From: Candidatus Zhuqueibacterota bacterium
GTDB lineage: Bacteria > Zhuqueibacterota > Zhuqueibacteria > Residuimicrobiales > Krinioviventaceae
Reading direction: 5' to 3'
Length of the DNA: 33,485 nt
Assembly (NCBI GenBank): GCA_016934825.1
Contig: JAFGSB010000035.1
Coordinates: 1 to 33,485 of the forward strand
The position numbers were made by a program, and so were the translations under genes. The notes under the pieces were generated by a model. The model worked only from the letters and a program-made list of their open reading frames with translations. It did not search any database and was not told where the DNA came from. This document shows, in pieces, positions 59-23,049 of the stretch (positions are counted from its first letter, which is position 1; each line of letters opens with the position of its first letter).

Positions 59-83
59 TAAGAAAATTTATTTGGAGTATAAA

Positions 84-1685
84 ATGTCAATTTTGCAGAA
101 AGTTGTAGTTTCTTTAATGATAATGATGAACTTTCTTCACGCTCAACCACAACAACTGCAACTTGATGGCAAGCCCGTATTTCTGGAATCAGAGCAAGTC
201 AAGATAAGGGACAGTAACGGAAATTATTGCGCAGCTATTCGGGTGGTGTCAACCCTGGGTGGATTCCAGTATGAAGCGACTTCCGAGATTGTTTTGATTA
301 CCAACCAACCCGGAATGGATATCCTGTATTTACCAATTGATGAAAAAGTCATTACAATTTTTCATAAAGATTTTTTACCGCTGGTCATCAACCTTGTAGA
401 AGCCGGAATTATCCTGAGAGAACGTGAGGTCTGGCAGATTCAGGTAACAACCGTAAACATAGAACAGGAAATCGACATTCGTGTCAATACAAATCCTGCA
501 GGCGCGATAGTGTATGTTGATGGAAATAAAGTAAATTCGAATGGACAAATAAAAGTAACCCCGGGTACACATCAGTTGCGTTTGATAAAAGGCGGTTATG
601 ATTCTGTAAATACTTCTATATTTGTCGCTCCCGATATGACCGACTTTCATTTTGATCTCAAAAAGCAGGAATTAGCCGTTTTAAATATTACATCAGTACC
701 CGATAGCGTTGAAATATTTATAAATGATGAAAGAATCGGTACCACACCCATAAAAGATAAACAATATCCTTTAGGGACATATCAACTGAGAGCGCAATTA
801 CCCTGGTATGTTACATATAATAATATTGTAGAATTGTCTCAGGGTAAAAATACAAAGCAAATAATCCTTGAACCCGACTTTGGTACACTCAAAATAAGTT
901 CATCACCCTATGATAGTTTGAATATATTTATCAATAATAATCTCCGTAAGGAGAAAACACCATTTACATATGAACGAATGTGGCCCGGTAAATATTATAT
1001 TAAAGCCGGATCAAAAGATTATATAACAGATGAACAGGAATGTATAATTGGACGTGGTGAGACAATAGTCGTGAATTTAACACCGGTTCCTTATTTTGCT
1101 TTACTTACTATTAACAGCACTGACGATGCTGTAGTATATTTAAACGGTGAACGTCAAACTCAATTACAGGATATAAAATTAGTACCCGGTATGGTTGAAT
1201 TGCGGGCGGAATTTCCCGACTCTCAGGCTGTTGAACAGCAAATTTTATTAGCAAAGGGTGATATAATCAATGTAGATTTATTTCCGGAAACAGAATTAGG
1301 CTCAATTAACATTGTTACTGATCCTTCAGAAGCCGAAATTGTATTATTGGGCGAAAACGGTCAATCAATCAATGCCGATCAACCCGGATTATTTGAACAT
1401 TTAAATTCAGGAAATTATGTATTAATCGTTACCCATGATGATTATGAGGGTTTCTCCGAAACCATTGAGTTAAAAAACTCTGATAATATTGAACGCAATG
1501 TTCAATTACAAATGAAAAGTACATTACCCCTGATTACCGAAGAGAAAAAGAGTAATAAAAAATGGTTATGGATCGGAGCAGGTGTTGCCGCTATAGGCGG
1601 CGGCGCGGCTTATATCATGTCTTCAGGTAAAGACGAAACAGAACAGGCAACTCTTAAAATATCAGTTCCCAAAACATTAGATTAA
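84..1685 (+). CDS. Exported PEGA-repeat protein with C-terminal membrane segment
   Basis: The function is unknown; PEGA domains are small beta-sandwich modules usually found in surface or envelope proteins. I chose the ATG at 84 over the in-frame TTG at 72, because GGAG at 74-77 lies six bases before the ATG and overlaps the TTG alternative. The 533-residue product begins with a Sec signal peptide (hydrophobic stretch, then NFLHAQP). From about residue 130 there are roughly five beta-rich repeats, each with a PxxAxVxVDG-like strand and a GxYxL or GxHxL strand, such as the segments around NPAGAIVYVDG and VPDSVEIFINDE. Near the C-terminus a charged KKSNKK stretch precedes a glycine/alanine-rich membrane segment (about residues 491-510) and a short polar tail of about 20 residues. 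It lies 25 bp before the BACON lipoprotein gene, so the two are probably co-transcribed. Fold confidence is high; the role is not known. Confidence 0.85.
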   Translation: MSILQKVVVSLMIMMNFLHAQPQQLQLDGKPVFLESEQVKIRDSNGNYCAAIRVVSTLGGFQYEATSEIVLITNQPGMDILYLPIDEKVITIFHKDFLPLVINLVEAGIILREREVWQIQVTTVNIEQEIDIRVNTNPAGAIVYVDGNKVNSNGQIKVTPGTHQLRLIKGGYDSVNTSIFVAPDMTDFHFDLKKQELAVLNITSVPDSVEIFINDERIGTTPIKDKQYPLGTYQLRAQLPWYVTYNNIVELSQGKNTKQIILEPDFGTLKISSSPYDSLNIFINNNLRKEKTPFTYERMWPGKYYIKAGSKDYITDEQECIIGRGETIVVNLTPVPYFALLTINSTDDAVVYLNGERQTQLQDIKLVPGMVELRAEFPDSQAVEQQILLAKGDIINVDLFPETELGSINIVTDPSEAEIVLLGENGQSINADQPGLFEHLNSGNYVLIVTHDDYEGFSETIELKNSDNIERNVQLQMKSTLPLITEEKKSNKKWLWIGAGVAAIGGGAAYIMSSGKDETEQATLKISVPKTLD

Positions 1686-1710: not shown

Positions 1711-4700
1711 ATGAAGAAGTATATTTGTTTAATTTGTTTGTTAATATTTTTATTTTCAATATCGTGTCAATTATTTGAACCGGAAACACCCTCACAAGCA
1801 ATATTGAATATACAATTATTATTCCCCAAAGAGACATCTCAACTGCAGAAAGTAAATAGCTGGCAGATCGATTCTGTTTTTGTGGAGATAAAGGACAGCG
1901 GCAGCAAGTCTGTAATTACACAATGGTTAAGTTTAAAAGACTCAACCTATGAAGGTGAGTGGCAGGTTGATGCCGGAAACGGCTACCAGGTCCGTGTTGA
2001 ATGCTGGCAGGATAACGCGCTGGTATATGCCGGCGAGAAAAGCGGTATCAATGCCGGAGCCGGCCAAACGGTCAATGTTAAAGTCCCGATGACCTTTGCA
2101 ATACAATCGATAGAAGTTACACCATCCTCATGGAGCCTGGAACCTGCAAAAACAATTCAGTTGCATGCGTTTGCCGTATTTTCGGACAATAAAAAGATTG
2201 AAATAACACGGCAGGTTATTTGGAGTATTGAATCCGGAACGGCGGGCAGTATCAATAATGAAGGATTATTCACAGCTTCAGCTGTTGAATCCGGTAATGT
2301 GACGGTCAGAGCGAGTTATAAGGGAAACCAGGGCACTGCCGCCGTAACTGTTAACAAAATTTTGGTGAATATAAAAATATATCCAACAAATGTTGAGCTC
2401 ACGAATGGCCAAAGCCGGCAATTTTTTTGTTATGCCTATTACAATAATGGCGACAGTGCCGATGTATCCGGTGAGACCGTATGGAGTGTGAATCCGCCGG
2501 AGGCCGGTAATTTTTCCGGCAATCTGTTTACTGCAACTGAAAACTGGACAGGTAATGCGACTGTTAAAGCGAGTTTTGACACACAGGTTGATACGAACAC
2601 AATACAGATCAGTGAAACGAGATTACCCTTTCCCACAGGTGTCACCGCCTCAGACGGAACCTCCACGGGTTATGTAACTTTAAGCTGGAATCCTGTAAGT
2701 GGAGCAAGTTACTATCAGGTCTACAGAGGAACGGATTCAACATCAAACAAAACACCTATCAGCGAGTGGCAGATAGAAACTTTTTTTAATGATTCGGACG
2801 CAAATCCCGGCAAAACTTATTTTTATTGGGTAAAGGCAGCCAAAACGAGCAGTGGGGGGAGTGCAAGTGATTACAGTAAATATGATACAGGATATCGAAC
2901 TCAACTGTCAATAAGTATTAGTCCCGAGAGCCGCCCGGTAGGCAGCGAATCCGGGTCAACGACGTTTAATATCACCTCCAATATGAACTGGGACGCGACC
3001 GACGATGCGGACTGGTTAACTCTGAGTCCGACAAGCGGAAGCGGCAACGGAACATTAACCGCCACTTTCTCTGCTAATGAATCTGCAAGTTCCCGGACAG
3101 CCACGATCACCGTTTCCGGGGCAGGGATTACACGACAAGTCACGGTTATCCAGTCGGGATTTACTTCTATATTAACAGTCGATCCCGAAAGCCGTCAGGT
3201 AGACAGGGGATCGGGTTCGACGACGTTTAATATTACATCCAATGTGAACTGGAGTGCATCTGACGATGCCGGCTGGTTGAGCCTGAGTCCGGCAAGCGGC
3301 AGCGGTAACGGAACATTGACCGTTACTTTCTCAGCCAATGAATCCACAAATCCCCGGACAGCCACAATCACCGTTTCCGGTGGCGGAATTTCCCGGCAGG
3401 TTACGGTTGTTCAGTCGGGTTCTTATATGCTGCTTGTAGAGCCAGCAAGCCGCTCGGTAGACAGTGGAACAGGATCGACGACTTTTAGTATTACTTCCAA
3501 TGTGAACTGGAGTGCGTCGGACGATGCCGGCTGGTTGACCTTGAGCCCGGCAAGCGGCAGCGGAAACGGAACTTTAACCGCCACTTTCTCTGCCAATGGA
3601 TCCACAAGTTCCCGCACGGCCACGATCACCGTTTCCGGGGGCGGCATTACGCGTCAGGTTACGGTTGTCCAGTCAGGATTGTCTACATTAACAGTAAATC
3701 CTTTGAGCCGCTCGGTAAGCAGCGTATCCGGGTCAACGACGTTTAATATTACATCCAATGTGAACTGGAGTACGTCGGACGATGCAGACTGGTTGACACT
3801 GAGTCCGGAAAGCGGCAGCGGCAACGAAACCATGACCGCCGCATATTCTGCCAATGTATCCACAAGTCCACGGACGGCCACGATCACCGTTTCAGGAGGA
3901 GGACTTAACCGGCAGGTCACGGTTGTCCAGGCCGGATACACTGCTGTACTGACGGTCGATCCGCCGAGCCGTTCGACCGACAGTGGTGCGGGATCGACGA
4001 CTTTCAGTATCACTTCCAATGTAAACTGGAGTGCGTCGGATGATGCCGGCTGGTTGACCCTGAGTCCGGAAAGCGGCAGCGGTAACGGGACTCTGACCGC
4101 CGTATATTCTGCCAATGTATCCACAAGTCCTAGGACGGCCACGATCACCGTTTCAGGCGGCGGGATCACCCGGCAGGTCACGGTTGTTCAATCAGGATTT
4201 ACTTTTACACTGACCGTCGATCCACCCAGCCGCTCTGTCGACAGCGAGCCGGGTTCGACAACGTTTAATATTACTTCCAATGTGAACTGGACTGCGTCTG
4301 ATGATGCGGACTGGTTAACTCTTAATCCGGCAAACGGGAGCGGCAACGGAACCTTGACTGCCGCATATTCTGCCAATGAATCCACAAGTCCCCGGACGGC
4401 CACGATTACCGTTTCAGGCGGCGGGATCACGCGCCAGGTCACGGTTGTCCAGTCCGGATTTGCTACTGTACTGACGGTAGACCCCCAAAGCCGTCCGGTC
4501 GACAGCGGACCAGGATCGACGACGTTTGATATCACATCCAATGTAAACTGGAGTGCGTCGGATGATGCGGACTGGTTAACTCTGAGCCCGGTAAGCGGCA
4601 GCGGCAACGGAACATTAACCGCCACATTTTCTGCCAATGAATCCACAAGTTCCCGAACGGCCACGATCACCGTTTCCGGGGACGGGATCACCCGACAGGT

Positions 4701-5583
4701 TACGGTCGAGCAATCTGGTCTGTCGACTTTGACGGTTGACCCTTTGACTCGCTCAGTTGGCAGCGAAGCGGGAACAACAACATTTGATATCACTTCCAAT
4801 GTAAACTGGAACGTGTCCGATAATGCGGACTGGTTGAGCGTGAGTCCAACAAGCGGCAGCGGCAACGGCACCCTGACTGCCACTTACACTGCCAATAATT
4901 CTTCGAGTCCCCGTACCGCAAATATTACAGTTTCAGGCGGAGGCATTATCTTGCTGGTAACGGTTGTCCAGGATAGCCTGTCTACCGATATCGTTACTGA
5001 TATTGACGGCAATGTCTATCAAATCATAAAAATTGGCGACCAATGGTGGATGGCGGAAAATTTAAAAGTAACACACTACCGCAACGGCGATCCTATAATC
5101 AAAGTCACCAGTAATTCAGTGTGGACGGGTTTAAATAGTGGTGCATACTGTTATTATAATAACAACAGCAGTACCGCCGATATTTTTGGCGCTTTGTACA
5201 ACTGGTTTGCCGTCACCGACGGCCGAAATATTGCCCCGGAGGGCTGGCATGTGCCAAGTGATGCCGAATGGCAAATCCTGACAGATTATCTTGGCGGAGC
5301 TTCTGAAGCCGGCGGTAAAATGAAAGAAACCGGGACCGAGTACTGGAACAGTCCCAATTCAGGCGCAACGAACGAAAGCGGCTTTACCGCATTACCGGGC
5401 GGTTTCCGCAGTTACCTGGATGGTGTTTTTTACAGTTTACGCAATAACGCTCACTTTTGGTCTTCCACAGAATATGATAATGACGCCTCATGGCGCCGAA
5501 AGCTTTTCTATAACAGTACGGAAGTGAGTCAGGATTATGTCAATAAGCTTTTCGGATTTTCAATTCGATGTGTTAAGGATTAA
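1711..5583 (+). CDS. Large surface lipoprotein: Big2-like x2, FN3-like, BACON x8, FISUMP
   Basis: This 1290-residue protein is probably a cell-surface lipoprotein that binds carbohydrate or another extracellular ligand; that role is inferred from domain content. The N-terminus is a signal peptide ending in a lipobox-like SISC, with Cys19 as the candidate lipidated residue. Domains in order are: two Big2-like beta-sandwiches (about residues 131-216 and 217-300), each with a VTPSxxxL or IYPTNVEL opening and a WS(I/V) core; a fibronectin type III-like domain (about 305-395); eight tandem BACON repeats (about 400-1088), each with NW(S/T)xSDDAxWLxLSPxSGSGNGT and RTATITVSG cores; and a C-terminal FISUMP (Fibrobacter succinogenes major paralogous) domain (about 1092-1290) with WMAENLK, GWHVPSDAEW, LPGGFR and FWSSTEY motifs. 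The BACON units are 86-87 residues long and strikingly similar in DNA. Only weak Shine-Dalgarno sequence precedes the ATG. It probably forms an operon with the preceding PEGA gene. Confidence 0.92.
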   Translation: MKKYICLICLLIFLFSISCQLFEPETPSQAILNIQLLFPKETSQLQKVNSWQIDSVFVEIKDSGSKSVITQWLSLKDSTYEGEWQVDAGNGYQVRVECWQDNALVYAGEKSGINAGAGQTVNVKVPMTFAIQSIEVTPSSWSLEPAKTIQLHAFAVFSDNKKIEITRQVIWSIESGTAGSINNEGLFTASAVESGNVTVRASYKGNQGTAAVTVNKILVNIKIYPTNVELTNGQSRQFFCYAYYNNGDSADVSGETVWSVNPPEAGNFSGNLFTATENWTGNATVKASFDTQVDTNTIQISETRLPFPTGVTASDGTSTGYVTLSWNPVSGASYYQVYRGTDSTSNKTPISEWQIETFFNDSDANPGKTYFYWVKAAKTSSGGSASDYSKYDTGYRTQLSISISPESRPVGSESGSTTFNITSNMNWDATDDADWLTLSPTSGSGNGTLTATFSANESASSRTATITVSGAGITRQVTVIQSGFTSILTVDPESRQVDRGSGSTTFNITSNVNWSASDDAGWLSLSPASGSGNGTLTVTFSANESTNPRTATITVSGGGISRQVTVVQSGSYMLLVEPASRSVDSGTGSTTFSITSNVNWSASDDAGWLTLSPASGSGNGTLTATFSANGSTSSRTATITVSGGGITRQVTVVQSGLSTLTVNPLSRSVSSVSGSTTFNITSNVNWSTSDDADWLTLSPESGSGNETMTAAYSANVSTSPRTATITVSGGGLNRQVTVVQAGYTAVLTVDPPSRSTDSGAGSTTFSITSNVNWSASDDAGWLTLSPESGSGNGTLTAVYSANVSTSPRTATITVSGGGITRQVTVVQSGFTFTLTVDPPSRSVDSEPGSTTFNITSNVNWTASDDADWLTLNPANGSGNGTLTAAYSANESTSPRTATITVSGGGITRQVTVVQSGFATVLTVDPQSRPVDSGPGSTTFDITSNVNWSASDDADWLTLSPVSGSGNGTLTATFSANESTSSRTATITVSGDGITRQVTVEQSGLSTLTVDPLTRSVGSEAGTTTFDITSNVNWNVSDNADWLSVSPTSGSGNGTLTATYTANNSSSPRTANITVSGGGIILLVTVVQDSLSTDIVTDIDGNVYQIIKIGDQWWMAENLKVTHYRNGDPIIKVTSNSVWTGLNSGAYCYYNNNSSTADIFGALYNWFAVTDGRNIAPEGWHVPSDAEWQILTDYLGGASEAGGKMKETGTEYWNSPNSGATNESGFTALPGGFRSYLDGVFYSLRNNAHFWSSTEYDNDASWRRKLFYNSTEVSQDYVNKLFGFSIRCVKD
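2908..4975 (+). repeat. Eight tandem BACON-coding repeats (258 or 261 bp each)
   Basis: Equivalent codons of successive units begin near 2923, 3184, 3442, 3700, 3961, 4222, 4483 and 4741, giving spacings of 261, 258, 258, 261, 261, 261 and 258 bp. Conserved blocks include TCCAATGTGAACTGGAGTGC-like and GGCCACGATCACCGTTTC-like stretches in most units. Units 2 to 7 look most alike, and the first and last are more divergent, as expected of an array homogenised by unequal recombination or gene conversion. The antisense strand stays open over long stretches because of this repeated codon use. Confidence 0.9.
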
Positions 5584-6127
5584 ATTTTAGATCATAATCC
5601 AAGAAAAGTCGGTTAATAGGTTTTGAAAAATATTTATTTTAAATTTCAGTCCTCACCGATTTAAGAAACCGACGAGTATTTTTACTGGACTTTTCTTAAT
5701 TTTAACGGATGAAAGGCCGAAGGTCTGACACCTTATCCTATGGGGGATTTTAATTTTCACGATCTTTGTGCCATGAAAGGATAGCCTGATAATTTTTCTC
5801 TTTTCAAGTAAGCAGTTAAATAATCCATCCTACTTCGGGGGATCGTAATTACTCCAGAAACAAAAAGTCAGAAAGAGGCCGAAATTTTTCTAACTGTAAT
5901 ATAGGAATGAACCCAATTTTATTTCCATACACCCAATTATAATTACACTCACAAAAAAATAATATTTCTTTATTTAAAAATATATTATATTTGCCCAAAA
6001 ATCCAGGACAATATTGAAAACTAATGTAAATCGGTTTAATTTATTCTGGAAGTTATTTAATTTTAGTTTTGTTTTGAAGTAAATATTTATGTTCAGAAAA
6101 ATTCGTATTTTTATGAAAGAGAGCTTT
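5584..6127. other. Intergenic gap of about 540 bp with no convincing gene
   Basis: No ORF of useful length, tRNA-like T-loop or recognised riboswitch core was seen. The left part holds the inverted repeat described at 5601-5697. The middle (about 5700-5850) is less AT-rich and has short G-rich runs (GGGGG near 5742 and 5838), but I could not fold it into a known RNA. The right part (about 5940-6090) is very AT-rich and probably holds the promoter of the dikinase-like gene. The gap separates the surface-protein pair from the next transcription unit. Confidence 0.6.
5601..5697. repeat. Imperfect inverted repeat after the BACON lipoprotein gene
   Basis: The arms AAGAAAAGTC (5601-5610) and GACTTTTCTT (5688-5697) are perfect 10-bp complements. 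A second, overlapping pair, GTCGGTT (5609-5615) and AACCGAC (5667-5673), lies inside. The transcript could fold into a long bulged stem. It starts 18 bp after the stop codon. It could be a transcription-termination or mRNA-stability structure, or the remnant of a small mobile element. There is no clear uridine run after the right arm, so a standard intrinsic terminator is not well supported. Confidence 0.45.
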
Positions 6128-9049
6128 ATGAAAAAGAATATTTTTTACTTTGTATTATTTATTATCTTTTCCATACTTACTGCATCACTATATGGTCAAA
6201 ACATCACGGATAAAGATATTGCCAGTTTGGTCAAGGAATTCAAAGCTGATGAGCGGGGTCCGTACCAGGCCATTCGCTGGTTTTGTCCTGATGGAACCGT
6301 GTTGCCCCCCACTGAACGCTGTACTCAACCGGGTGGAGTTCAGCATGCGTTAAATAAAAATATCGTCACCAAACTGGCTGTTGAGCGGGGTATTTATCTG
6401 GGCCAAATTTTAGCCGGCACCGAATATGAAATTTTTTGGGATGAAAAGAATGAACATTCCAGACTTTTGCAGTATATCATCGAAAATTATTTGCGTAGTA
6501 TCGACAACGGCTGGATATTGCGCCGTGCTCAATACTACCGCGGCGCATTCCAGGATGAAGATGAAAATGACTGGGGACATAAATTCTTATTATGGGTTGT
6601 AAAAGATAATACCAGTTATAAAAAAAATTTTTTTATACTACGCCAGGCAGTCCGTTCTATCCCGCATAATACCGGCGACAGCCGTTGGGAAAATATCCGT
6701 GCGGTATCCAAAACTTTGTCCGATTCATTACCCTCATTTTACAATCTTCGTGTCAAATTACACGGCCAGCCCGATATCAGCGATCTGCAGAGATTGCGGG
6801 AATACCGTTCAAATTACAGAGGACGTTTTAGTCAGGAACAAATTAAATTATTCGATACACTGGAACAGGACCTGATATATGTTTTTCAACCCATAAATTT
6901 TTCAAAGTTGAAAAAAATAGTCTCACTACTGCCAAAAGATTCAAAACTGGCAAATGACTTTGCGGAGCTCAGCGCCCTATCCCAATCGCCAACTCTTTCT
7001 TCCGCAACCCTGATAAAACTTATCGATTTGATGTGGCAGTGCCGGATAGATTTAAACGTTTTGCCAAAACCGGAACAAAAACTGGCGGCCCTGGATTTGT
7101 CTGTCGCGCTGGAAAATATCCTGTTTCGCGAAGTGAACTCCTGGCAGACCAATACAATATATGATATTATTGAAAAAAGTTACTATTTGACCCGTGCGGC
7201 TGCCGCGGCTGGGTTTCTCGAAATCTGGGAATATCAGGAAATCGACCAGCAAGTCAAACCTTCACCTGATACCAGTATAAAATTAACTCAATTGAAACTG
7301 AAATCAGAATATATAAAAAGGGCGCTGGAATGGTCTGCCGGTATGGTTCGGGCGAATTATCAGGAACCGCTTGCCCTGTTCAATGGTTTTGAGCCACTAT
7401 GTCAGGGATTTATTGACGATAGAATTCGCGTTTCCGTACTTTTACCTCTGGGTAACATCGCCGGTCAACTAAACGATTTGTACATGTCGCAGGCCGGCAT
7501 CAAACAGCAGGTACTGGATATTCCGTCACAAAACCAGGTGCGCGGAATTAATCCGGGTTACGCTTTGGGAGAACTGATCGTATTAAATTCGCTTGATGAT
7601 GAAACCGTTTTTTCTAAGGACAAAATTTACGTGTTATCCCGAACACCATCGGATTTAAAACCGGTTGCCGGTTTGCTGACCGTTTCCGAAGGAAACCTGG
7701 TCTCCCATGTACAACTTTTAGCGCGAAATTTGGGTATACCGAATGCGGTAATAACCCGTCAGAATTTGGAAGAACTGTTAAAGTACAATTACTCCATGGT
7801 TTTTTATGCCGTCTCACCCTCCGGAGGGGTGCAGATGAAATCGGTCCGACAAATGACAGATGAAGAAAATGCCCTGGTCATATCCAAACCCGCAACCGAG
7901 AATTTGAAAATTACGGTGCCGACAGACAAACTTTTACTCGATAAAAAGGATTTAATCGATTTACGTCAATTGCGGGCCTCACATTCCGGCAAACTCACCG
8001 GCCCAAAAGCCGCGAATATGGGGCAGTTAAAAAGCATGTTCCCCGAAAATGTCGTTGAGGGAGTTGTTTTACCATTCGGGATTTATCGGGAGCATATGAA
8101 TCAAATCATGCCCGGTGAAGAAATAACCTACTGGCAGTATTTAAATGATACCTTCAGTATTGCCCGGAATATGAAACAATCTGACCGCACAGATAACGAA
8201 ACTGAAAAATTTATTCTTACGAGACTGGAAACTCTCCGAAACGCAATTAAACAAATGTCCTTTTTGCCGGGATTTTATGATAAATTAAATAACGCGTTTA
8301 AAAAAATATTGGGAAAGCCAATGGGCAGTGTACCGGTATTTATTCGCAGCGACACAAATATGGAGGATCTGAAGGATTTTACCGGCGCAGGTTTAAATTT
8401 AACCGTGTTCAATGTCCGTGATGAACAAAAAATTCTGCAGGGTATCAGGGACGTCTGGGCGTCGCCATTCAGTGAACGGAGCTATCAATGGAGACAAAAG
8501 ATACTGCTCAATCCGGAAAATGTTTATCCGTCCATTTTGATCATTCCATCGGTAAATGTTGACAAATCCGGCGTTATCATCACAACCGGAGTGTTCTCCG
8601 GCAATCCTGATGACATAACAATTGCTTTCAACAGGGGAGCGGGAGGGGCCGTTGAGGGACAGATCGCCGAATCGTATAATTTGTATTCATCTTTAGGTTA
8701 CATGTTGTTATCGCCGGTCAGGGAAAAGCGGTATACTTTTTTACCGCCGATAGGCGGAGTTGAAAAGCATGCCGCCACTTTTGAAGATCCAATTTTAAAA
8801 CCTGATGATATTAAACAGATACGCCAACTGGTCGGCGGAATAAAAAATAAACTACCGGGAGCGCCGGGAATGGAATCATCCGGTCCCTGGGATATTGAAT
8901 TGGGTTTTTATGAAGGTAAAATCTGGCTATTTCAGATACGTCCGTTTGTTGAGAATAAACGGGCAAAATCTTATAATTTTTTAAATGCTATGGATCATGC
9001 AATCGACCTGAATAAAATTATATCTTTAAAATCACCGTTAAAACAATGA
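6128..9049 (+). CDS. Exported PEP-synthase/glucan-dikinase-like protein (phosphohistidine then ATP-grasp domain)
   Basis: The C-terminal half resembles the PEP/pyruvate-binding ATP-grasp domain of pyruvate phosphate dikinase and PEP synthase. Its marks are a GPKAANMGQL opening, an FIRSDTNMEDL motif with Arg740, a GAGGAVEGQIAES segment and a WDIELGFYEGKIWLFQIRPF ending. Before it, about residues 470-580 form a mobile phosphohistidine domain with GNLVSHVQLLARNLGIPNAV, where His527 is the likely phosphoryl acceptor. This order (His domain, then ATP domain) is that of glucan water dikinases and the reverse of PEP synthase, and no PEP/pyruvate barrel follows. The N-terminal 450 residues are helical and unrecognised. 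I preferred the ATG at 6128 to the upstream ATG at 6089: AAGAGAG lies just before it and the product then starts with a standard MKKN signal peptide ending LYGQ. An ATP-using fold outside the cytoplasm is odd. The next gene begins 45 bp downstream and is probably co-transcribed. The substrate is unknown. Confidence 0.82.
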   Translation: MKKNIFYFVLFIIFSILTASLYGQNITDKDIASLVKEFKADERGPYQAIRWFCPDGTVLPPTERCTQPGGVQHALNKNIVTKLAVERGIYLGQILAGTEYEIFWDEKNEHSRLLQYIIENYLRSIDNGWILRRAQYYRGAFQDEDENDWGHKFLLWVVKDNTSYKKNFFILRQAVRSIPHNTGDSRWENIRAVSKTLSDSLPSFYNLRVKLHGQPDISDLQRLREYRSNYRGRFSQEQIKLFDTLEQDLIYVFQPINFSKLKKIVSLLPKDSKLANDFAELSALSQSPTLSSATLIKLIDLMWQCRIDLNVLPKPEQKLAALDLSVALENILFREVNSWQTNTIYDIIEKSYYLTRAAAAAGFLEIWEYQEIDQQVKPSPDTSIKLTQLKLKSEYIKRALEWSAGMVRANYQEPLALFNGFEPLCQGFIDDRIRVSVLLPLGNIAGQLNDLYMSQAGIKQQVLDIPSQNQVRGINPGYALGELIVLNSLDDETVFSKDKIYVLSRTPSDLKPVAGLLTVSEGNLVSHVQLLARNLGIPNAVITRQNLEELLKYNYSMVFYAVSPSGGVQMKSVRQMTDEENALVISKPATENLKITVPTDKLLLDKKDLIDLRQLRASHSGKLTGPKAANMGQLKSMFPENVVEGVVLPFGIYREHMNQIMPGEEITYWQYLNDTFSIARNMKQSDRTDNETEKFILTRLETLRNAIKQMSFLPGFYDKLNNAFKKILGKPMGSVPVFIRSDTNMEDLKDFTGAGLNLTVFNVRDEQKILQGIRDVWASPFSERSYQWRQKILLNPENVYPSILIIPSVNVDKSGVIITTGVFSGNPDDITIAFNRGAGGAVEGQIAESYNLYSSLGYMLLSPVREKRYTFLPPIGGVEKHAATFEDPILKPDDIKQIRQLVGGIKNKLPGAPGMESSGPWDIELGFYEGKIWLFQIRPFVENKRAKSYNFLNAMDHAIDLNKIISLKSPLKQ

Positions 9050-9094
9050 TCTTATTTGCTACATCTGCAATGTAAAATTTTTGTGAGGATTGAT

Positions 9095-10351
9095 ATGAGA
9101 TATTGGTACTTTTTCTTTGTTTCTTTTTTAATATTTATGGTTGTCAACAACCGGCTTTACTCATATCCTTATGACGGTTACGAATATACGGGCATCCGGC
9201 GACTGGCATATATCAAACATGTTGTTGATGGAACACGAAAGGGAACAAAGCCCGTTCCCGGTTCACTTTTATCAATATCCGATGTTAAACTGAATCTTGT
9301 CAACAGCCGCGGCGACAGTTTAAACGAACTCCCAACAGCCGATCCGGCGCTGGAAAAGCAAATCGATGCATTATTCCCAAACCGTGACGAGAGTTATTCA
9401 CTTGCTTTGTTGGATATTACTCCCGGTAAAAAGGTCCGGTTCGCTTCCCGGCAGATGGAACGGCAATTCATGCCCGGAAGTGTCGGCAAGCTGGCTATAG
9501 CTGCCGGATTATTTACCGAGCTGAAACGAATTTATCCTGATTCTGAGGAAAAACGACATCAATTATTAAAAACACGGCAAATCACGGCCGATAAATGGAT
9601 CCAAACTGATTCACATACCGTACCCGTTTTTGATCCTGTCACAAATAGTTTTGTTTCCCGCCGATTACAGTTAGGCGATGTGTTTTCTTTATATGAATGG
9701 GTGGACCATATGCTTTCCGCAAGCGCCAATGCGGCGGCAAGCGTCGTGTGGAAGGAATTGATCCTCATGCGCGAATTCGGAGAAAAATATCCGGTTAGTT
9801 ATGAACAGGAACAGGAGTATTTTAAAAATACGCCAAAAAGCAAATTGCAGGAGATCGCAATTTCCGTAGTGAATGACCCGTTACGGGAAATTGGCATAGC
9901 TCAGCAAGACTGGCAGCTTGGAAGTTTTTTTACCGGAACCGGTAAAGCTATTGTTCCCGGAACACGCAGTTACGGGAATCCGAAAGCTTTACTCCAATAC
10001 CTGATCGCACTGGAGAGGGGAAAAATAGTCGATGAATGGTCCAGCTTGCAGATAAAACGACTTTTATATATGACAGCGAGACGTATCCGCTATGCATCAT
10101 CACCGGCAATTCAAAATGCCGCTGTTTATTTTAAATCAGGCAGCCAATACAAATGTAAGGAAGAACCGGATTTCAAATGCGGACAGTATATGGGGAATGT
10201 TGAAAATTATATGAATTCTGTTGCCATTATCGAACAGCCTGACGGGCAAATTTATTTAATTGCCCTGATGTCAAATGTTCTGAGAAAAAATTCTGCCGTG
10301 GAGCATCAAAGTCTGGCGACATTCATTGACCGGATTATTCGGGGGAAGTGA
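9095..10351 (+). CDS. Exported serine hydrolase of the penicillin-binding/beta-lactamase fold
   Basis: This is probably a periplasmic or surface serine acyl-enzyme acting on peptidoglycan-like substrates, or a catalytic relative. The three expected motifs are in order: SVGK at residues 129-132 (nucleophile Ser and Lys), SAN at 210-212, and KSG at 347-349. The start is the ATG at 9095, because GAGG at 9085-9088 precedes it by six bases; the frame is open back to a TTG at 9056 that has no such site. The product has 418 residues and begins with a hydrophobic signal segment ending near YSYP. Length and motif spacing exceed those of class A beta-lactamases, so antibiotic hydrolysis is not implied. 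It follows the dikinase-like gene closely and is convergent with the transporter-like gene, leaving only 17 bp between their stops. Confidence 0.85.
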   Translation: MRYWYFFFVSFLIFMVVNNRLYSYPYDGYEYTGIRRLAYIKHVVDGTRKGTKPVPGSLLSISDVKLNLVNSRGDSLNELPTADPALEKQIDALFPNRDESYSLALLDITPGKKVRFASRQMERQFMPGSVGKLAIAAGLFTELKRIYPDSEEKRHQLLKTRQITADKWIQTDSHTVPVFDPVTNSFVSRRLQLGDVFSLYEWVDHMLSASANAAASVVWKELILMREFGEKYPVSYEQEQEYFKNTPKSKLQEIAISVVNDPLREIGIAQQDWQLGSFFTGTGKAIVPGTRSYGNPKALLQYLIALERGKIVDEWSSLQIKRLLYMTARRIRYASSPAIQNAAVYFKSGSQYKCKEEPDFKCGQYMGNVENYMNSVAIIEQPDGQIYLIALMSNVLRKNSAVEHQSLATFIDRIIRGK

Positions 10352-10368
10352 ATCTATGATATTCTTTA

Positions 10369-13230
10369 TCAGAGTCCGAATTTCTTTAACATGAATTGCG
10401 CTTTTTCCCTGACTTTAAAATCGTGATCATATGTACATTTAGCAATAATCGGCAGATATTTTGTGTCATTTAATAATTCGATCAGTTCCAGGGAATACAA
10501 TTTTAAATCACTGTCTTCCGAATTCATGAGAGAATCGAAATATTCTTTTTCATCCTGATATTTATCAACAAACCGTTGTAAAGACTTTGTGACAACTTCA
10601 TCCAACAACGCCGATTCAGCAATCGGCAGAATTACTTTTTTTAAATCCGGCTCCAGTAAATTATCCAAAAAATCGATTGCATTCAAACGTAATTCATTAT
10701 CGTTACTTTTTATGCCGGCATAAACATTTTCAATATCATCAGGTGGATATTTTAATCCAAGCATGTGAAAAATTCGTTTTAACTTTCTGTCAAGTCTTTT
10801 TTCCAGAATACTGATTAACCGCGTTCGGGCATCTTTCAATTTTTCGTTCAAGGCATTGGTTTGGGCGGACGCGGTGATTTTATTATTAAGCTGATTTTGA
10901 TGATATAAAAAAACCAGCGTATTCATAAAATCATTCGATTCTTCAAAGATGAAATGCATGATGTCCGGATCTCCAAAACGAAGGTGGGGGGCATTGAGAC
11001 GTAACTGATAAAGGGCATCGATAATCTGCGATCGTATGGCGCGGTCGGATATATCTAAATTTTGTGTCAGGGCATCGACTGTCGATTGAATTTCAATTTG
11101 TTCCATAACTTTTGGAATTCTTAACCGTGCATCGCGGTCAATTGAATTGTCTTTCAAATGTCCGCTAAGCAGAGTGATTATATTCGGACCAAAGTTTACG
11201 AGAGCGGTTTGAGTAAAGGTCCAGTATTTTTTCTCACGTAACAGGTGAATGAGCACGGGCCAAAATTCTTTCTCCCTTGTTAAACCCGCCCCGATAATTG
11301 CAGATGCAACAACCTGGTTTTCAGAATCCCGGAGTAAATAATGCAAAAAAGGATAGAGTTCAACAATTTTACCTTCTCCGATTACACGTGCGCAGCATCT
11401 TTTCATGGTGATTATTTCAAGACTGTCTTTACTTTTCTGTATGCCCAGCAATTCTTTTTGAATACGCAGACTCAAATTAAATAATTGGCAATAGGTCGAA
11501 TTATTGGCACAAAGCCGGGCAGTACATAGAAGGGCCGCACTTCGGACAATATAATCCCTGGAATTGAGGTGTTCTGTTATTTTTTCTTCCCTGTTTTCCC
11601 GCTCACTGTCATATAACAAATACATAGCTTCCGCACGTATGTCAAGATTTTCGTCATGAATCAATGCTTTAATTTTTTCAAAAGAAACCTCATATTTGTA
11701 ATTCTGTAATTGCTGTAATGCTTCAAGTCGTATTAACGGAGATGAGTGAACAACAAGGTTCTGAATTGCGGGCACAAATAATTTGATTTTTAACGGCCGT
11801 ATCATATAAAGAGTGTGCAGGATTGTTTTTTTATCACCCTCCTGCAGTACTTTTAATATACCGTTTATCACAGATTGGTTTGTTAAATCCGGGGTTTTTA
11901 GTTTATTTTTGGCAGAGCCGCTTAATTCCAGTTTCAAACGAAACGAGTGCAGATATTCTGTTTTTATAAGAAAAATAAGATACAGCCACCCACAAATTAT
12001 AATAATACTTAAAAAGCTGACTTGTTTTGTTGAAGCGTTCAATATGTCGGTAAGGATAATCAATAAAATCCCGCTAATACCGGTCGCAAAACTGTCGACA
12101 AAAACATCGATAAATGACTTTGCCTGGGATTTGATATCTGTGGCAATTGGTAACGCCATTAATTCCATACCGGATTTGTTTATTGAATTTTTCAAACTGC
12201 CGTCCAGTAATTTGATCAAAACAACCGCCCAGAGTTCAGGAAAGATTAAAATTGTGCTTGCCCCGATTAATAGCGCAACAGGAAGGAAAAATAATGAAGT
12301 CCCCACTCCAAAAATACCGACGACCCGCGGAGTGATAAAAATTTGAATCAACAGTGTTGCAACGTTTAAGTTTGACAACCAAAATCCAAAGAATGCCGTC
12401 AGCTCATCTTCATGTGTAATATATTCAGTAGATATTGCACTGAACTGGTATTCAACCAATTTACCGACAAGAACAGCTATACCCAATACAGAAGCCATTA
12501 GCTTCAAATGCCGAGAGGAAAGAATGAGACGTAAGGAATTTGGATTTTTTCTCGAATTACCGTTTCCCCTGATCGTTTTAACCTCATAATGCTGTTCCGG
12601 TTTACCCTGCCATAATTGTTTAATTATTAAAATACAGCCGCTTAAAAGAAAAAGGAATACAAAAATGAGATTTTTACTGCCGAGAAGGGGGGCAAGTAAG
12701 TTCGTTAAATATCCGCCGAAGATTCCTCCGGCGATTGCACCGGAACCAATAAATCCAAATAATCTTTTTGCCTCGCGAGAATTAAAGATGATATTAGCCA
12801 TTATCCAGAATTGAGAACTGGTAATCACTGCGTAAATAGCAACAGTGATATATAGCACATACAGAACCCACCTTTCCAGCCAGTTAAAGGTCAAGAATAA
12901 CCAGAAAACCAAAAAAAGACCTATAGCCGTAAAAAGTGTCCACTCAATCAGGTGATGCAAATTTATCGATTTGACCGAATTACCGTACAGAACGGAGACA
13001 ACGGAAGCGAAAATAGCTACCAGAATAAATACATAAGGTAAACGCTCCGGACCGAACTCTGAGAGGAATAAAGCGTTCACCATTGGTTTAACGATCATCA
13101 ATCCGGAAATGATCAGAAATATATACAGCCACATCAAAAAAGCGCGTTTTTCTTCACCTTCATGAATATTAAATATTTTGAAGAAAAACTCATGTAGTAA
13201 ATTTTGACGGTTAATAAATGGGTGAACCAT
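10369..13230 (-). CDS. Nucleotide-transporter-like (Npt/ATP-ADP translocase family) membrane protein with C-terminal HEAT repeats
   Basis: The first 430 residues or so contain about twelve hydrophobic helices. The segment around SREAKRLFGFIGSGAIAGGIFGG (residues about 150-172) is typical of the bacterial Npt1/Npt2-like branch of the ATP/ADP translocase superfamily. From about residue 450 to the end it is soluble and alpha-helical with repeated paired helices, such as PLIRLEALQQLQ, LDIRAEAMYLL and DYIVRSAALL, which read as HEAT repeats. Family members outside obligate intracellular bacteria mostly have unknown substrates, so ATP/ADP exchange should not be assumed. The start ATG at 13230 is preceded by AGGG at about ten bases. 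It lies 14 bp downstream of the beta-lactamase-fold gene on the same strand, so the two are very likely one operon. Confidence 0.82.
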   Translation of the reverse strand: MVHPFINRQNLLHEFFFKIFNIHEGEEKRAFLMWLYIFLIISGLMIVKPMVNALFLSEFGPERLPYVFILVAIFASVVSVLYGNSVKSINLHHLIEWTLFTAIGLFLVFWLFLTFNWLERWVLYVLYITVAIYAVITSSQFWIMANIIFNSREAKRLFGFIGSGAIAGGIFGGYLTNLLAPLLGSKNLIFVFLFLLSGCILIIKQLWQGKPEQHYEVKTIRGNGNSRKNPNSLRLILSSRHLKLMASVLGIAVLVGKLVEYQFSAISTEYITHEDELTAFFGFWLSNLNVATLLIQIFITPRVVGIFGVGTSLFFLPVALLIGASTILIFPELWAVVLIKLLDGSLKNSINKSGMELMALPIATDIKSQAKSFIDVFVDSFATGISGILLIILTDILNASTKQVSFLSIIIICGWLYLIFLIKTEYLHSFRLKLELSGSAKNKLKTPDLTNQSVINGILKVLQEGDKKTILHTLYMIRPLKIKLFVPAIQNLVVHSSPLIRLEALQQLQNYKYEVSFEKIKALIHDENLDIRAEAMYLLYDSERENREEKITEHLNSRDYIVRSAALLCTARLCANNSTYCQLFNLSLRIQKELLGIQKSKDSLEIITMKRCCARVIGEGKIVELYPFLHYLLRDSENQVVASAIIGAGLTREKEFWPVLIHLLREKKYWTFTQTALVNFGPNIITLLSGHLKDNSIDRDARLRIPKVMEQIEIQSTVDALTQNLDISDRAIRSQIIDALYQLRLNAPHLRFGDPDIMHFIFEESNDFMNTLVFLYHQNQLNNKITASAQTNALNEKLKDARTRLISILEKRLDRKLKRIFHMLGLKYPPDDIENVYAGIKSNDNELRLNAIDFLDNLLEPDLKKVILPIAESALLDEVVTKSLQRFVDKYQDEKEYFDSLMNSEDSDLKLYSLELIELLNDTKYLPIIAKCTYDHDFKVREKAQFMLKKFGL

Positions 13231-13244: not shown

Positions 13245-14186
13245 CTAATTATTTTGTTTTGTGGTTAAAAGGACTTTTTCCATGGCTGGAATAAGATTTC
13301 TTAAAATTTGTTCTCCATTTTTATCTTCTATTAAACCAACAACAATATATCGTCGCCATTTTGGCCCCCAAACCAGTGCGGAATCCGAATGCCAGTTTTG
13401 CCATGTCCCCGATTTCCGGTACACTTTTGCGTCAGGGGCAAGATTATCCAATGAATTTACAAATTTGTGATGGATTTCCGGATCAATTAACATATCCAAC
13501 ATCATATGCGACCGTTCCCAACTGACAAGTTTACCCATTGCTAACAGGTAATAAAATCGACAGACCTGTGTAGCTGTCGCTCCATGACTAATGTTAAAAA
13601 GAGGATCGCCATTTCGATTACCTGATTTTGCATATCTTTTACCAACCCATAAACCGCCGCCACGCCTGGGATCATACAATTCGTATTTTTTATCCCGTAA
13701 TGTATCTTCAATTTTTTCCAAACCGATACGATCTATCATACGAGTTGCCGCCTGGTTATCCGAATTACTGATCATTTTACGCATATCGTTCAGAACTTCA
13801 GGGGTTTCCTCTAATTTGCCATCCTCCAAAGATTGCGCTGCACCTAACAGGATCGCGAGTTTGGGTAAACTTGCAGCATACATCATTTTGTCACCATTTA
13901 AACGGGCAAATTTAGCATGATATGGATCACTTAAATCGACTATACCTACTGCCATTTTTTTCTTTTTTACCAGGCTTGCCCAAATTGTGTGGTTAAAAAT
14001 TTCTTTTTCAAGATTTTTCTGTAACGTCAAATCTCCCAGTTGTACCAATGGTTTAATCTGGTCATCCGGAATTCTAAATGGTAATGTGTCCTGTTTTCCA
14101 TTGTGGTTGTCCAGGGCGGAGAGTAAACAAGTATTGTTGAGAAATACCAGGCATGTCAGGATCAAAACCGGATAAATCTTATTCAT
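13245..14186 (-). CDS. Exported class A beta-lactamase-like serine hydrolase
   Basis: The 313-residue product has a signal peptide (hydrophobic to about residue 23, ending LLSA) and all three serine beta-lactamase/PBP motifs: SLPK at 106-109, SDN at 142-144 and KSG at 258-260. The SDN form and the size match class A beta-lactamases. However, I see no clear ExxLN omega-loop motif between SDN and KSG, where a GGGLW segment stands instead. Efficient beta-lactam hydrolysis is therefore uncertain, and a peptidase- or esterase-like activity is possible. An AAAGGA site precedes the ATG. It is the first gene of a probable two-gene unit with the HEAT-repeat transporter, and it is the second beta-lactamase-fold gene within 5 kb; the two proteins are clearly not close paralogues in length or motif spacing. 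Confidence 0.88.
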   Translation of the reverse strand: MNKIYPVLILTCLVFLNNTCLLSALDNHNGKQDTLPFRIPDDQIKPLVQLGDLTLQKNLEKEIFNHTIWASLVKKKKMAVGIVDLSDPYHAKFARLNGDKMMYAASLPKLAILLGAAQSLEDGKLEETPEVLNDMRKMISNSDNQAATRMIDRIGLEKIEDTLRDKKYELYDPRRGGGLWVGKRYAKSGNRNGDPLFNISHGATATQVCRFYYLLAMGKLVSWERSHMMLDMLIDPEIHHKFVNSLDNLAPDAKVYRKSGTWQNWHSDSALVWGPKWRRYIVVGLIEDKNGEQILRNLIPAMEKVLLTTKQNN

Positions 14187-19350: not shown

Positions 19351-20211
19351 TCAAGATTTTTCGGTTGAATCTATCTTTTTAAAAATTTGTTTGACATGAT
19401 CATTAAAAGTCGGAATATTTTCTTTTAAAAACAAACCAAGGTATACCGGTTCTTTGCTTTCTGCATATTGCAGTGCCAGAGTCCGGTTATCGGCTTTATA
19501 ATCTTCCGGGAATTTTCCAACGACTTGGTTCCAGCTTTTATAAGTAATTAACCTGTTAAATTCGACACACGGCGAAAGGTCATGAATTAGTGAAAATCCT
19601 TTGTGTTGCAAGGCCTGTTTGATAAGATCGGACACATCCTGTCGTTCGCGCGAAAAAACACGCGCGACAAAAGTTGCGCCGTAGGCCAGCGCGAGTGTTG
19701 TCGGATTAATCGGCCTGGCAATATTGCCGTAAGGTGTGGTTCCGCTAATCATTCCAACGGGAGAGGTGGGGGAGACCTGCCCCTTTGTCAAACCATAGAT
19801 ACTGTTATCGAGAAGAATATAAGTTATATCCAGATTGTTTCTGACGGCATGGGGAAAATGCCCGCCGCCGATACCTACACCGTCTCCATCGCCGCCCACG
19901 ACTATAACCGTTAACTCGGGATTCGCTATTTTTATTCCGGTTGCGATCGGCAGGGCCCGGCCGTGCAGAGCGTGAAAGCCGAATCCCTTAATAAAAAACG
20001 GAAATCGTCCCGAACAGCCGATCCCGGAAACTACAACAAAATTTTTCTCGGGTATTTTTAAATCCAGTGCCGCCTCATAAAGCCCGTTTAAGGCCGTGAA
20101 ATGGCCGCAGCCCGGACACCAGGTCGGCAAAATATCCCGCCATTTACTTTTATTTTTTATTTTAGCGCGTTCCAGTCCCTCCAGTACGGCTCGTTTATTG
20201 AGTGAGTTCAT
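19351..20211 (-). CDS. korB: 2-oxoacid:ferredoxin oxidoreductase, beta subunit
   Basis: This subunit binds thiamine pyrophosphate and one [4Fe-4S] cluster and, with the alpha/gamma subunit, interconverts a 2-oxoacid plus CoA with acyl-CoA, CO2 and reduced ferredoxin. The cluster cysteines are visible: Cys32 and Cys35 in WCPGCGH, Cys66 in GIGCSGR and Cys215 in LSPCVEF. The TPP motif is GDGDGVGIGGGH (108-119) with Asn136 in LLDNSIYG. The size and two-subunit arrangement fit the 2-oxoglutarate (Kor) type, but a pyruvate or other 2-oxoacid specificity cannot be excluded. The start overlaps the end of the alpha gene by 17 bp, with a strong GGAGGTGA site before the ATG, which indicates translational coupling. 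Confidence 0.92.
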   Translation of the reverse strand: MNSLNKRAVLEGLERAKIKNKSKWRDILPTWCPGCGHFTALNGLYEAALDLKIPEKNFVVVSGIGCSGRFPFFIKGFGFHALHGRALPIATGIKIANPELTVIVVGGDGDGVGIGGGHFPHAVRNNLDITYILLDNSIYGLTKGQVSPTSPVGMISGTTPYGNIARPINPTTLALAYGATFVARVFSRERQDVSDLIKQALQHKGFSLIHDLSPCVEFNRLITYKSWNQVVGKFPEDYKADNRTLALQYAESKEPVYLGLFLKENIPTFNDHVKQIFKKIDSTEKS

Positions 20212-21952
20212 GATTCACCTCCATGATTTTCGCGGCTATTTTGGCCGGACTGACCGGGTCAACCGAAGGGATATGTACCTCAACGGGTTTGATATTATAT
20301 GTCGATTTCAATAATGCGGCATATTGTCCCTGAAAGTTCATTTCGAAAACAATTATTTTTTTACAGGAAGCAAAAAAGGTTTTGAAGGATTCTTCATCCT
20401 GCGGGTAGATCATGATGGATTTGATCATCTTAGTTTTAACACCATTATGCCGAGCTATTTGCATACCTTCAAAGATCGCTCCATAAGTTGAGCCCCAGCA
20501 GGCAATGCCGATGTCGGCATCCGCATCGCCGATAATTTCCACCGGCGGCAGGTCCTTTACCATACTTTTAAATTTCCTGAATCGCTTTTGGGTCATTGTT
20601 AAATGGACCTCGGATTCAAAATTGGGATTACCGGCAGTATTGTGGGCTAATCCGGTAATAGAGTAAAATGCGCCGTCCTCACCCGGCACAATAAGAGGGG
20701 ACACGCCGTCTTCTGTTAATGCATATCGCTGATAATTTTTCAATTGTTGACGTGTCGGTTTTATTCGTGTACTTTTTTTATAGTTTATATTTCTTTTAAT
20801 ATCATCCGTTTCCAAACGCTGCCCTAAAAACAGATCGCTTAAAAAAATTACCGGTGTTTGATATTTCTCCGCCAGGTCAAAGGCGGCCTGAATACTGGTG
20901 TAACAGTCTTTTGAACAGGTTGGCGCCATGACGACGCGGGGCGAATCACCGGCACCGCCGTAAAGAGATATATTTAAATCCCCCTGTTCCACTTTAGTCG
21001 GTAATCCGGTTGCCGGTCCTCCGCGCTGTACATTCACGATTACAGCCGATATTTCCGCCATAACAGAAAGATTGATCAATTCACTCATCAGGGACAGACC
21101 GGGGCCGGCTGTAGCCGTCATTGCCCGGGTTCCGGTAAAAGAAGCGCCCAGAACCGCGCCAATGGCCGCAATTTCATCCTCAACCTGTATTGTCCACCCG
21201 TTTAATTTCGGCAATTCCTTTGCCGTAATTTCCATTATTTTGGTCGCCGGGGTAATCGGGTACCCGGCAAAAAACTTTAATCCGCAGTCCATGGCCCCGT
21301 GGGCCACGGCCTCATTACCGCTGATTATTTGTAACGGTTTGGCTTTTTTATCCATGACAAACAGATTATTCAGCGGATATTGGTTTTGACAATATTCATA
21401 ACCCAGTTCAAATGCCGTTAAATTGCTTTCGACAACCTTGTCGCCTTTTCTCTTGAAAATTTTTTCTATTTGATTGATAAATATTGTTTTGGGCAACCCG
21501 TACAGATGACATAATGCCCCCATGGATACGATATTACGGCCCCTGTTTGAACCTGATGCCTGATTGGCCAGCGTTTTTAACGGTATGCCGTAACCGTTCA
21601 CTTCAGGTGGTATATGGGACGCCAAACTTTCCGTCTCCGGAATATCCGCGGGAGAACTGCTGTCATAAATAACGCTGCCGCCTTCCCGGATGTCCTCTAT
21701 TTCATCGATGGATTCCTGTTGCGCCAGCCCGACCAGTGCGTTTATCCCGTCTCCCATACTGTATACTTTGGAACCGGAGAAACGAATCGTGGAAGTCGAT
21801 TTTCCCAGTCCCCGGATTTCAGCGCTGTAAATATCATTGACCATAACATGCAGTCCGGCATCGGCGCAGGCGCCGGAAATAATTCTGCTCGACGATACTA
21901 TGCCGTCTCCGGCAATACCGCAAAATCTGACCGTTAATTCTTTATAATTCAT
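20195..21952 (-). CDS. korA: 2-oxoacid:ferredoxin oxidoreductase, fused gamma-alpha subunit
   Basis: The 585-residue product joins a gamma domain (about residues 1-190, opening VRFCGIAGDGIVSS and including SAEIRGLGKSTSTIRFS) to an alpha domain (about 200-585) with GNEAVAHGA, the YPITPATKI motif and a QVEDEIAAIGAVLGAS segment. This fused form is the common partner of a roughly 290-residue beta subunit in Kor enzymes, and korB directly follows. No ferredoxin domain lies in this chain; the cluster-bearing partner is encoded two genes upstream in the same unit. In an FCB-type bacterium it could run in the oxidative or reductive direction of the TCA cycle, which cannot be decided here. Confidence 0.92.
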   Translation of the reverse strand: MNYKELTVRFCGIAGDGIVSSSRIISGACADAGLHVMVNDIYSAEIRGLGKSTSTIRFSGSKVYSMGDGINALVGLAQQESIDEIEDIREGGSVIYDSSSPADIPETESLASHIPPEVNGYGIPLKTLANQASGSNRGRNIVSMGALCHLYGLPKTIFINQIEKIFKRKGDKVVESNLTAFELGYEYCQNQYPLNNLFVMDKKAKPLQIISGNEAVAHGAMDCGLKFFAGYPITPATKIMEITAKELPKLNGWTIQVEDEIAAIGAVLGASFTGTRAMTATAGPGLSLMSELINLSVMAEISAVIVNVQRGGPATGLPTKVEQGDLNISLYGGAGDSPRVVMAPTCSKDCYTSIQAAFDLAEKYQTPVIFLSDLFLGQRLETDDIKRNINYKKSTRIKPTRQQLKNYQRYALTEDGVSPLIVPGEDGAFYSITGLAHNTAGNPNFESEVHLTMTQKRFRKFKSMVKDLPPVEIIGDADADIGIACWGSTYGAIFEGMQIARHNGVKTKMIKSIMIYPQDEESFKTFFASCKKIIVFEMNFQGQYAALLKSTYNIKPVEVHIPSVDPVSPAKIAAKIMEVNHELTQ

Positions 21953-21985
21953 TCACATTGTCCATACATTGTTATGTACATATAT

Positions 21986-22987
21986 TTATTCCCACCACCG
22001 GGCTTTTATGGGTTTACCTTCCAGATGAAAGGTAAGGGTTTCATGAATCTGGTATAGGGCCTTTTCACCCGCAATATTTTTCCCGGCAATTTCGCCCTGT
22101 TCCCTGGCATTGGGCCAGCCAAAGTTGATCCAGTAATTCTTCAGGATTGGGTGATAAATTTCCGCGCAATCACCGGCGGCAAAAATATCTTGTTCAGAGG
22201 TTTCCATATATTGATTGACTAAAATACCGGTCTTTTTATGAATAGCCGTACCTTCCAGCAAAGATATATTCGGTTTACTGTCATCCCAGGCGAAAACAAT
22301 ATCCGTTTTAATTATCTTCTGATTCAAAGTTTCAACTGTAAATTTTTTCTTTTCTTTTTTTATATTTACCAGTTTATCATTTGTTATGCATTGTATACCT
22401 TTGTTTTTCAAAAAGTAATGAACATCCTGTTCAAATTCTTCTTTCAATAAGGGGAAACGGGCCTTTTCACCCTTGATGATGTAGGTAATTTTTTTGTCCA
22501 AATTACACAATCCCGCCAACAGATCAAGATTACTCAGGTTTTCGCCATATACAACACAATGTTTGATATCCGGCAGAAATTTCTTCAGCAGCAAAATATC
22601 CTGTAAAGTATAGTAGGATTGTATATACTGAGAAAACGGTTTCAGAATCGGTCCAAGATGCTGTGATCCCCCGGTTGCGATTAATAATTTATCATACCCC
22701 ATAACTTCATTATGATAATATTTGATTGTTTTCTCAGCAGGATTAATGGATTTGATATATTCTCCGTTTCGATACTTTATATTATTTTTTTTGAAAAAAT
22801 CAAATGAAGTAAAATACAGTTGAGTATCATCTATAACATTACATAAATAATCGGTGAGCCTGTAACGATTGTATGGCAGGTATTGTTCTTTGCCGATGAG
22901 AACGACATCGATATCCTGATTGATTTTTTTTATGGTTTCGGCCGCAGTGACTCCCGCTATTCCCGCCCCGATTATGACACATTTCAT
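21986..22987 (-). CDS. FAD-dependent NAD(P)H oxidoreductase, short form
   Basis: This is a 333-residue pyridine-nucleotide-disulfide-type flavoprotein related to nitrite-reductase and rubredoxin-reductase FAD subunits. FAD binding is shown by IIGAGIAGVTAAE (GxGxxG at residues 7-12) and the late IFAAGDCAEIY motif. The PYNRYRLTDYL segment is typical of this subgroup. The region expected to bind NAD(P)H (about 140-165) has a weak VVYGENLSNLDLL motif, where the second and third glycines are replaced by Asn and Ser-Asn, so pyridine nucleotide binding there may be impaired. A good AGGAG site precedes the ATG by eight bases. It lies between the GltD-like gene (62 bp) and korA (33 bp), which argues that it passes electrons for the 2-oxoacid oxidoreductase. 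Confidence 0.85.
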   Translation of the reverse strand: MKCVIIGAGIAGVTAAETIKKINQDIDVVLIGKEQYLPYNRYRLTDYLCNVIDDTQLYFTSFDFFKKNNIKYRNGEYIKSINPAEKTIKYYHNEVMGYDKLLIATGGSQHLGPILKPFSQYIQSYYTLQDILLLKKFLPDIKHCVVYGENLSNLDLLAGLCNLDKKITYIIKGEKARFPLLKEEFEQDVHYFLKNKGIQCITNDKLVNIKKEKKKFTVETLNQKIIKTDIVFAWDDSKPNISLLEGTAIHKKTGILVNQYMETSEQDIFAAGDCAEIYHPILKNYWINFGWPNAREQGEIAGKNIAGEKALYQIHETLTFHLEGKPIKARWWE

Positions 22988-23049
22988 TAATTTTCTCCTG
23001 CCAATAGTACCTTCTTTATAAAGGAATAATAAAATAAAGATTTTTCCGT

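Follow-up and report, generated by a model that had tools for sequence, protein, structure and literature searches.

The window analyzed here, meaning the whole stretch of 33,485 nucleotides, covers positions 1 to 33,485 of the forward strand of contig JAFGSB010000035.1 (assembly GCA_016934825.1) from Candidatus Zhuqueibacterota bacterium. Four neighboring genes lie in it in the order DIK, SH1, NTT-HEAT, and SH2, and are predicted to encode an exported dikinase-like protein, an exported serine hydrolase, a carrier of the ATP/ADP-carrier type fused to HEAT repeats, and a second exported serine hydrolase (Table 1). DIK is single-copy in its own genome and is read as one open frame; an in-frame upstream ATG at 6089 would, if used, merely extend its leader. 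The SH1 frame begins with a TTG at 9056, and the ATG at 9095 is its likely start.

Table 1. Features of the four-gene locus and of its surroundings in the window
Feature	Coordinates	Strand	Details
DIK, exported dikinase-like protein	6128..9049	+	973 aa; 20 full-length homologues, 42-60% identity
DIK signal peptide, residues 1-23	6128..6196	+	predicted cleavage between G23 and Q24
DIK N-terminal region, residues 25-470	6200..7537	+	no known family; 44 invariant residues
DIK phosphohistidine (swivel) domain, residues about 471-575	7538..7852	+	His527 codon 7706-7708
DIK ATP-grasp (PPDK_N) domain, residues about 613-950	7964..8977	+	K627, R740, T759, E924, Q936, R938
SH1, exported SxxK serine hydrolase, PBP/beta-lactamase-like	9095..10351	+	S142-x-x-K145, S223-x-N225, K360-S-G
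NTT-HEAT (P0002)	10369..13230	-	953 aa; NTT (ATP/ADP-carrier, NTT/AAA) membrane part, about residues 1-430, plus HEAT repeats
SH2, second exported SxxK serine hydrolase	13245..14186	-	S106-L-P-K109, S142-x-N144, K258-S-G; fold closest to PBP-A
PEGA-domain lipoprotein-like ORF	72..1685		precedes the BACON-repeat gene
BACON-repeat protein	1711..5583	+	1290 aa; about eight BACON repeats, terminal Fibrobacter-succinogenes-major (FISUMP) domain
2-oxoacid:ferredoxin oxidoreductase subunits, then two NAD(P)-type flavoprotein oxidoreductases	19351..24720	-	4Fe-4S domains in one flavoprotein; resembles an ordinary redox operon
ORF	29652..31880	+	742 aa; no Pfam match
ORF	32410..33390	-	326 aa; no Pfam match

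The C-terminal part of DIK matches the Pfam family PPDK_N (PF01326) at residues 624-948 (E=1.6e-23; 83.9 bits against a cut-off of 27), and this ATP part also aligns with solved PEP synthases and with the Listeria rifampin phosphotransferase. Ahead of it, residues 510-547 match the PEP-utilisers domain (PF00391) at E=0.014 and 15.4 bits, below the curated cut-off of 23.1 when taken alone; the same stretch aligns with the His domain of the solved PEP synthase 8a8e and the family His signature, SHVQLLARNLGIP, is present. His527 and Arg740 fall exactly where a sequence-only reading of this DNA had placed them, in a phosphohistidine domain followed by an ATP-grasp domain, and, as that reading had also stated, no PEP/pyruvate barrel was matched in Pfam or NCBIfam. 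The N-terminal half had been called helical and unrecognized: it indeed matched nothing in Pfam or NCBIfam, nor did a PDB profile search return a match to it or any glucan dikinase, and its helices are predicted in a low-confidence AlphaFold2 model only (pLDDT 37.6; two sequences, those of the window and of locus L015). With an ATP-grasp domain, a phosphohistidine domain, and the expected ATP-binding and catalytic residues all present, DIK is, by its predicted domains, a member of the PPDK/PEPS/RPH dikinase superfamily.

A family search gathered 21 DIK sequences from two phyla, with full-length DIK present in 8 genomes (the window genome counted) among the 82 from the window's phylum and in 13 of 395 sampled Bacteroidota genomes (Algibacter luteus counted). 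All 21 members bear a hydrophobic leader and none of the homologues points to a conserved start that would remove it, so we reject the reading of DIK as a cytoplasmic protein with a misread start; the observation first made from the sequence is confirmed. In 20 of these members the leader is followed by a small residue ([A/G/S/T/C]) and then Q, the window's own leader being MKKNIFYFVLFIIFSILTASLYG ahead of QNIT. A Q after the cleavage site is the "Q-rule", a hallmark of exported Bacteroidota proteins (PMC5837995), and because the same study reports the rule as specific to Bacteroidota, it is only suggestive in the window's own phylum.

Among 143 positions invariant in the 21 sequences, 76 lie in the ATP domain, which makes it the most constrained region; the His domain holds 21, the N-terminal region 44, and the leader none. 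H527, K627, R740, T759, E924, Q936, and R938 are invariant in all 21, and five of them (K627, R740, T759, E924, and H527) correspond to K22, R117, T136, E297, and H825 of RPH, which serve in binding the phosphates of ATP or in carrying phosphate (PMC4844700). Two cysteines of the mature N-terminal region (C53 and C65) are likewise invariant and make a candidate disulfide; the invariance of this region suggests a specific role, presumably in acceptor binding. Export and catalytic competence of DIK are well supported by sequence, and the earlier proposal of an exported dikinase-type phosphotransferase with its His domain before its ATP domain is borne out by catalytic residues kept family-wide. 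No DIK relative was found on viral contigs, plasmids returned nothing but ordinary PEPS/RPH-type ATP domains as DIK matches, and the open-access literature searched yielded no paper describing an exported enzyme of glucan-dikinase-like type.

Members of this dikinase superfamily are assumed to work in the cytoplasm because that is where ATP is found, and ATP is normally absent outside it. Like DIK, RPH consists of an ATP-grasp domain, a swiveling His domain, and a large acceptor domain (PMC4844700), but its order is ATP-acceptor-His whereas that of DIK is acceptor-His-ATP, a circular permutation. RPH is also cytoplasmic while DIK is exported, their acceptor regions share no sequence relation, and DIK reaches 45.4 bits against a cut-off of 999 with the NCBIfam RPH model. 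PEP synthase and PPDK likewise combine ATP-grasp (PF01326) and phosphohistidine domains; DIK differs from them in having no PEP/pyruvate barrel, the reversed order, and a signal peptide, and it scores 80-90 bits with their NCBIfam models against cut-offs of 598-883.

The two hydrolases flanking NTT-HEAT both bear leaders, and their SxxK, SxN, and KSG motifs are invariant in the 14 SH1 and 12 SH2 rows aligned. A model of SH2 (pLDDT 67, pTM 0.69) has PBP-A (Tll2115) and class A beta-lactamases as its nearest folds (Foldseek E=1.1e-10), at an identity of 13-19%; the two hydrolases score 11.8 and 19.2 bits with the curated class A beta-lactamase model, whose cut-off is 200, well short of membership. 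PADLOC assigned none of the four module proteins to a defence family.

Gene linkage ties these proteins together. In 13 of the 21 DIK loci the four genes lie side by side; 4 others reach the end of a contig, and in one of these, rearranged NTT pieces lie just upstream of DIK; in 3 more, the DIK, SH1, and SH2 genes stand together with the NTT gene elsewhere in the genome, in one case without HEAT repeats. In the remaining genome (G260, L046), the sole one of its kind among those examined, the four genes are dispersed over two contigs, yet all are kept. Of 395 Bacteroidota genomes, 13 contain DIK, and it is in precisely these 13 that SH1 and SH2 are found; an NTT is present in all 13 vs 42 of 395 overall (hypergeometric 3.4e-14, shared ancestry ignored). 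Among the 82 genomes of the window's phylum, 8 hold both DIK and SH1 and no other holds either; SH2 occurs in 7 of the 8 and in no further genome, and an NTT is present in 8 of 8 vs 23 of 82 (p=1.4e-5, again ignoring shared ancestry). The genome lacking SH2 (G060) is assembled to 88% completeness and has a broken contig. That the module genes are patchily distributed, recur in a second phylum, and are all kept in G260 although scattered there argues for their mutual dependence. Pairwise distances covary across the four proteins as well (r 0.81-0.94), a pattern that vertical or joint inheritance would produce. No glucan genes belong to the module, which also holds no cyclic-nucleotide-binding partner.

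A conserved, exported, and catalytically intact dikinase implies that nucleotide is supplied beyond the inner membrane, and where the sequence-only reading had left the source of nucleotide blank, the carrier encoded two genes downstream is now a named candidate. The membrane part of NTT-HEAT matches the solved carriers AtNTT1 (9j3j) and Npt1 (9j3n) by phmmer (E=1.8e-4) and more strongly in profile searches (AtNTT1, E=3.5e-12; Chlamydia Npt1, E=2.9e-9); the protein does not reach the Pfam family TLC. A HEAT_2 match at residues 489-567 (Pfam, E=2.2e-17) follows the NTT domain. NTT-HEAT fusions are widespread in free-living bacteria but lack functional characterization (Major et al. 2017, PMC5381601), and we found no later open-access paper on their function; the carrier described here is the same fusion, tied in this case to fixed exported partners. 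Mutagenesis has linked K155, E245, and K527 of the Arabidopsis carrier to nucleotide binding or translocation (PMC3306366), and all three are replaced in every module NTT-HEAT protein aligned, E385 alone being kept, as E or D. Microsporidian NTTs that look functional also vary at some of these charged sites (PMC10654386). Even so, the absence of three of these four charged residues is a real warning that NTT-HEAT may carry something else, and it weakens the case for nucleotide transport.

Our best reading of these data is that DIK phosphorylates or activates its acceptor outside the cytoplasm, fed by NTT-HEAT. In the periplasm or at the cell surface, the ATP-grasp domain of DIK would bind a nucleoside triphosphate and pass the beta-phosphate to His527 on the swiveling domain, from which an acceptor bound by the N-terminal half would receive it. 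NTT-HEAT, in the inner membrane, would supply nucleotide by exchange, ATP or a relative moving out and spent nucleotide moving back, and the PBP-fold SH1 and SH2 would ready the acceptor or process it; the likeliest acceptor is a cell-envelope component such as peptidoglycan or a linked polymer. A glycan or other acceptor had been suggested from DIK itself; the PBP-like partners point as readily to peptidoglycan or another envelope acceptor, and because of them peptidoglycan or an attached polymer is a reasonable first guess, and no more than that. The export signal, the intact dikinase residues, the carrier superfamily, the intact hydrolase motifs, and module membership can each be read at the sequence level; from them we infer the reaction, the acceptor, and both the supply of nucleotide and the direction in which it moves. 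We regard an exported dikinase within an obligate four-gene module, with NTT-HEAT feeding nucleotide and the serine hydrolases handling an envelope acceptor, as having an even chance of being correct. The fuller proposal of a dedicated extracytoplasmic system, in which NTT-HEAT exports nucleotide to power ATP-driven modification of an envelope acceptor by DIK and the two PBP-fold hydrolases, seems to us slightly more doubtful than that. Against this mechanism also stand the three loci without an adjacent NTT and the shared ancestry behind the co-occurrence counts.

The strongest competing account keeps DIK as an exported dikinase but has NTT-HEAT carry the acceptor, a precursor, or some other anionic metabolite, with nucleotide coming from lysis or leakage. 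The missing equivalents of K155, E245, and K527 fit such a carrier, and other substrates are known among NTT relatives: the reference list of PMC5381601 includes carriers for NAD (chlamydial) and for SAM. Nucleotide exchange nevertheless defines the carrier superfamily, an extracytoplasmic ATP-dependent enzyme needs a nucleotide source, and the pairing of DIK with an NTT is invariant in 21 genomes; we consider this account unlikely, if still a serious competitor. Appreciably less probable is that DIK, like the PEP-synthase-like ligases PigC and RedH, activates its acceptor for joining with no stable phosphate ester formed, the hydrolases then acting as transferases or product trimmers. The NCBIfam PigC (E=4.8e-19) and RedH (E=1.6e-12) models do match the ATP-grasp part, and DIK is accompanied by two PBP-fold hydrolases with intact active sites, but these matches cover the common domain only and fall far under their curated cut-offs, and since the PEPS, RPH, and ligase families give similar scores, sequence is not decisive here.

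Kinship with glucan water dikinase (GWD), whose domain order the sequence-only reading had pointed out in DIK, is supported no further than that order: in plant GWD and phosphoglucan water dikinase the His domain precedes a C-terminal ATP domain, as it does in DIK (510-547 before 624-948). The RSDTNMEDL...GAGL signature of DIK may also resemble that of GWD. Unlike the plant enzymes, DIK is bacterial with a Sec-type signal. Pfam detects neither CBM45 nor CBM20 nor any other carbohydrate-binding module in it, its N-terminal half is unmatched, and its module offers PBP/beta-lactamase-fold partners instead of glucan genes. We rate it improbable, more so than the ligase account, that DIK is a bacterial counterpart of GWD phosphorylating alpha-glucan or another polysaccharide outside the cell. 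Least credible of all is a catalytically dead exported binding or scaffold protein, the weaker half of the earlier guess, for which nothing speaks except that no conventional ATP pool exists outside the cytoplasm, and against which every residue tested is invariant in 21 of 21 members at 42-60% identity, with the ATP domain the most constrained.

NTT-HEAT proteins also occur in other settings. At eight loci lacking DIK (L110, L114, L115, L117, L123, L124, L125, and L126), NTT-HEAT lies beside a lipoprotein of 530-650 aa (fam3) with an invariant lipobox-like Cys30 and invariant K150, K171, D301, and D326, a pattern reminiscent of HipA-type kinases; these loci often add an outer-membrane barrel-like protein (fam4) and a calcineurin-like metallophosphatase. 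The kinase likeness of fam3 amounts to a HipA_C match at E=0.079 in 1 of 9 members, and its PDB profile matches were spurious. The fam3 clusters may represent a second extracytoplasmic kinase context for NTT-HEAT. In the window's phylum, loci L110-L122 show a recurrent row of a single NTT, NTT-HEAT, a small cyclic-nucleotide-binding-like protein (fam2), and a response regulator, a layout that extends the NTT-HEAT-cNBD neighborhoods described previously (PMC5381601).

In conclusion, bacteria with this module may have a dedicated ATP-driven chemistry outside the cytoplasm. The invariant companion of DIK is an NTT-type carrier, of a group whose fusions to HEAT repeats occur widely in free-living bacteria without a known function (PMC5381601), and the module gives this orphan transporter a candidate role, which, if true, would be the first assigned to NTT-HEAT carriers in free-living bacteria. 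It would also be a bacterial parallel to the endoplasmic reticulum, where AXER/SLC35B1 imports ATP into the lumen (PMC6113206). Should the fam3 kinase be confirmed, NTT-HEAT would more generally serve extracytoplasmic ATP-using enzymes. The module is carried by the culturable flavobacterium Algibacter luteus, in which both puzzles, the exported dikinase and the orphan carrier, are testable.
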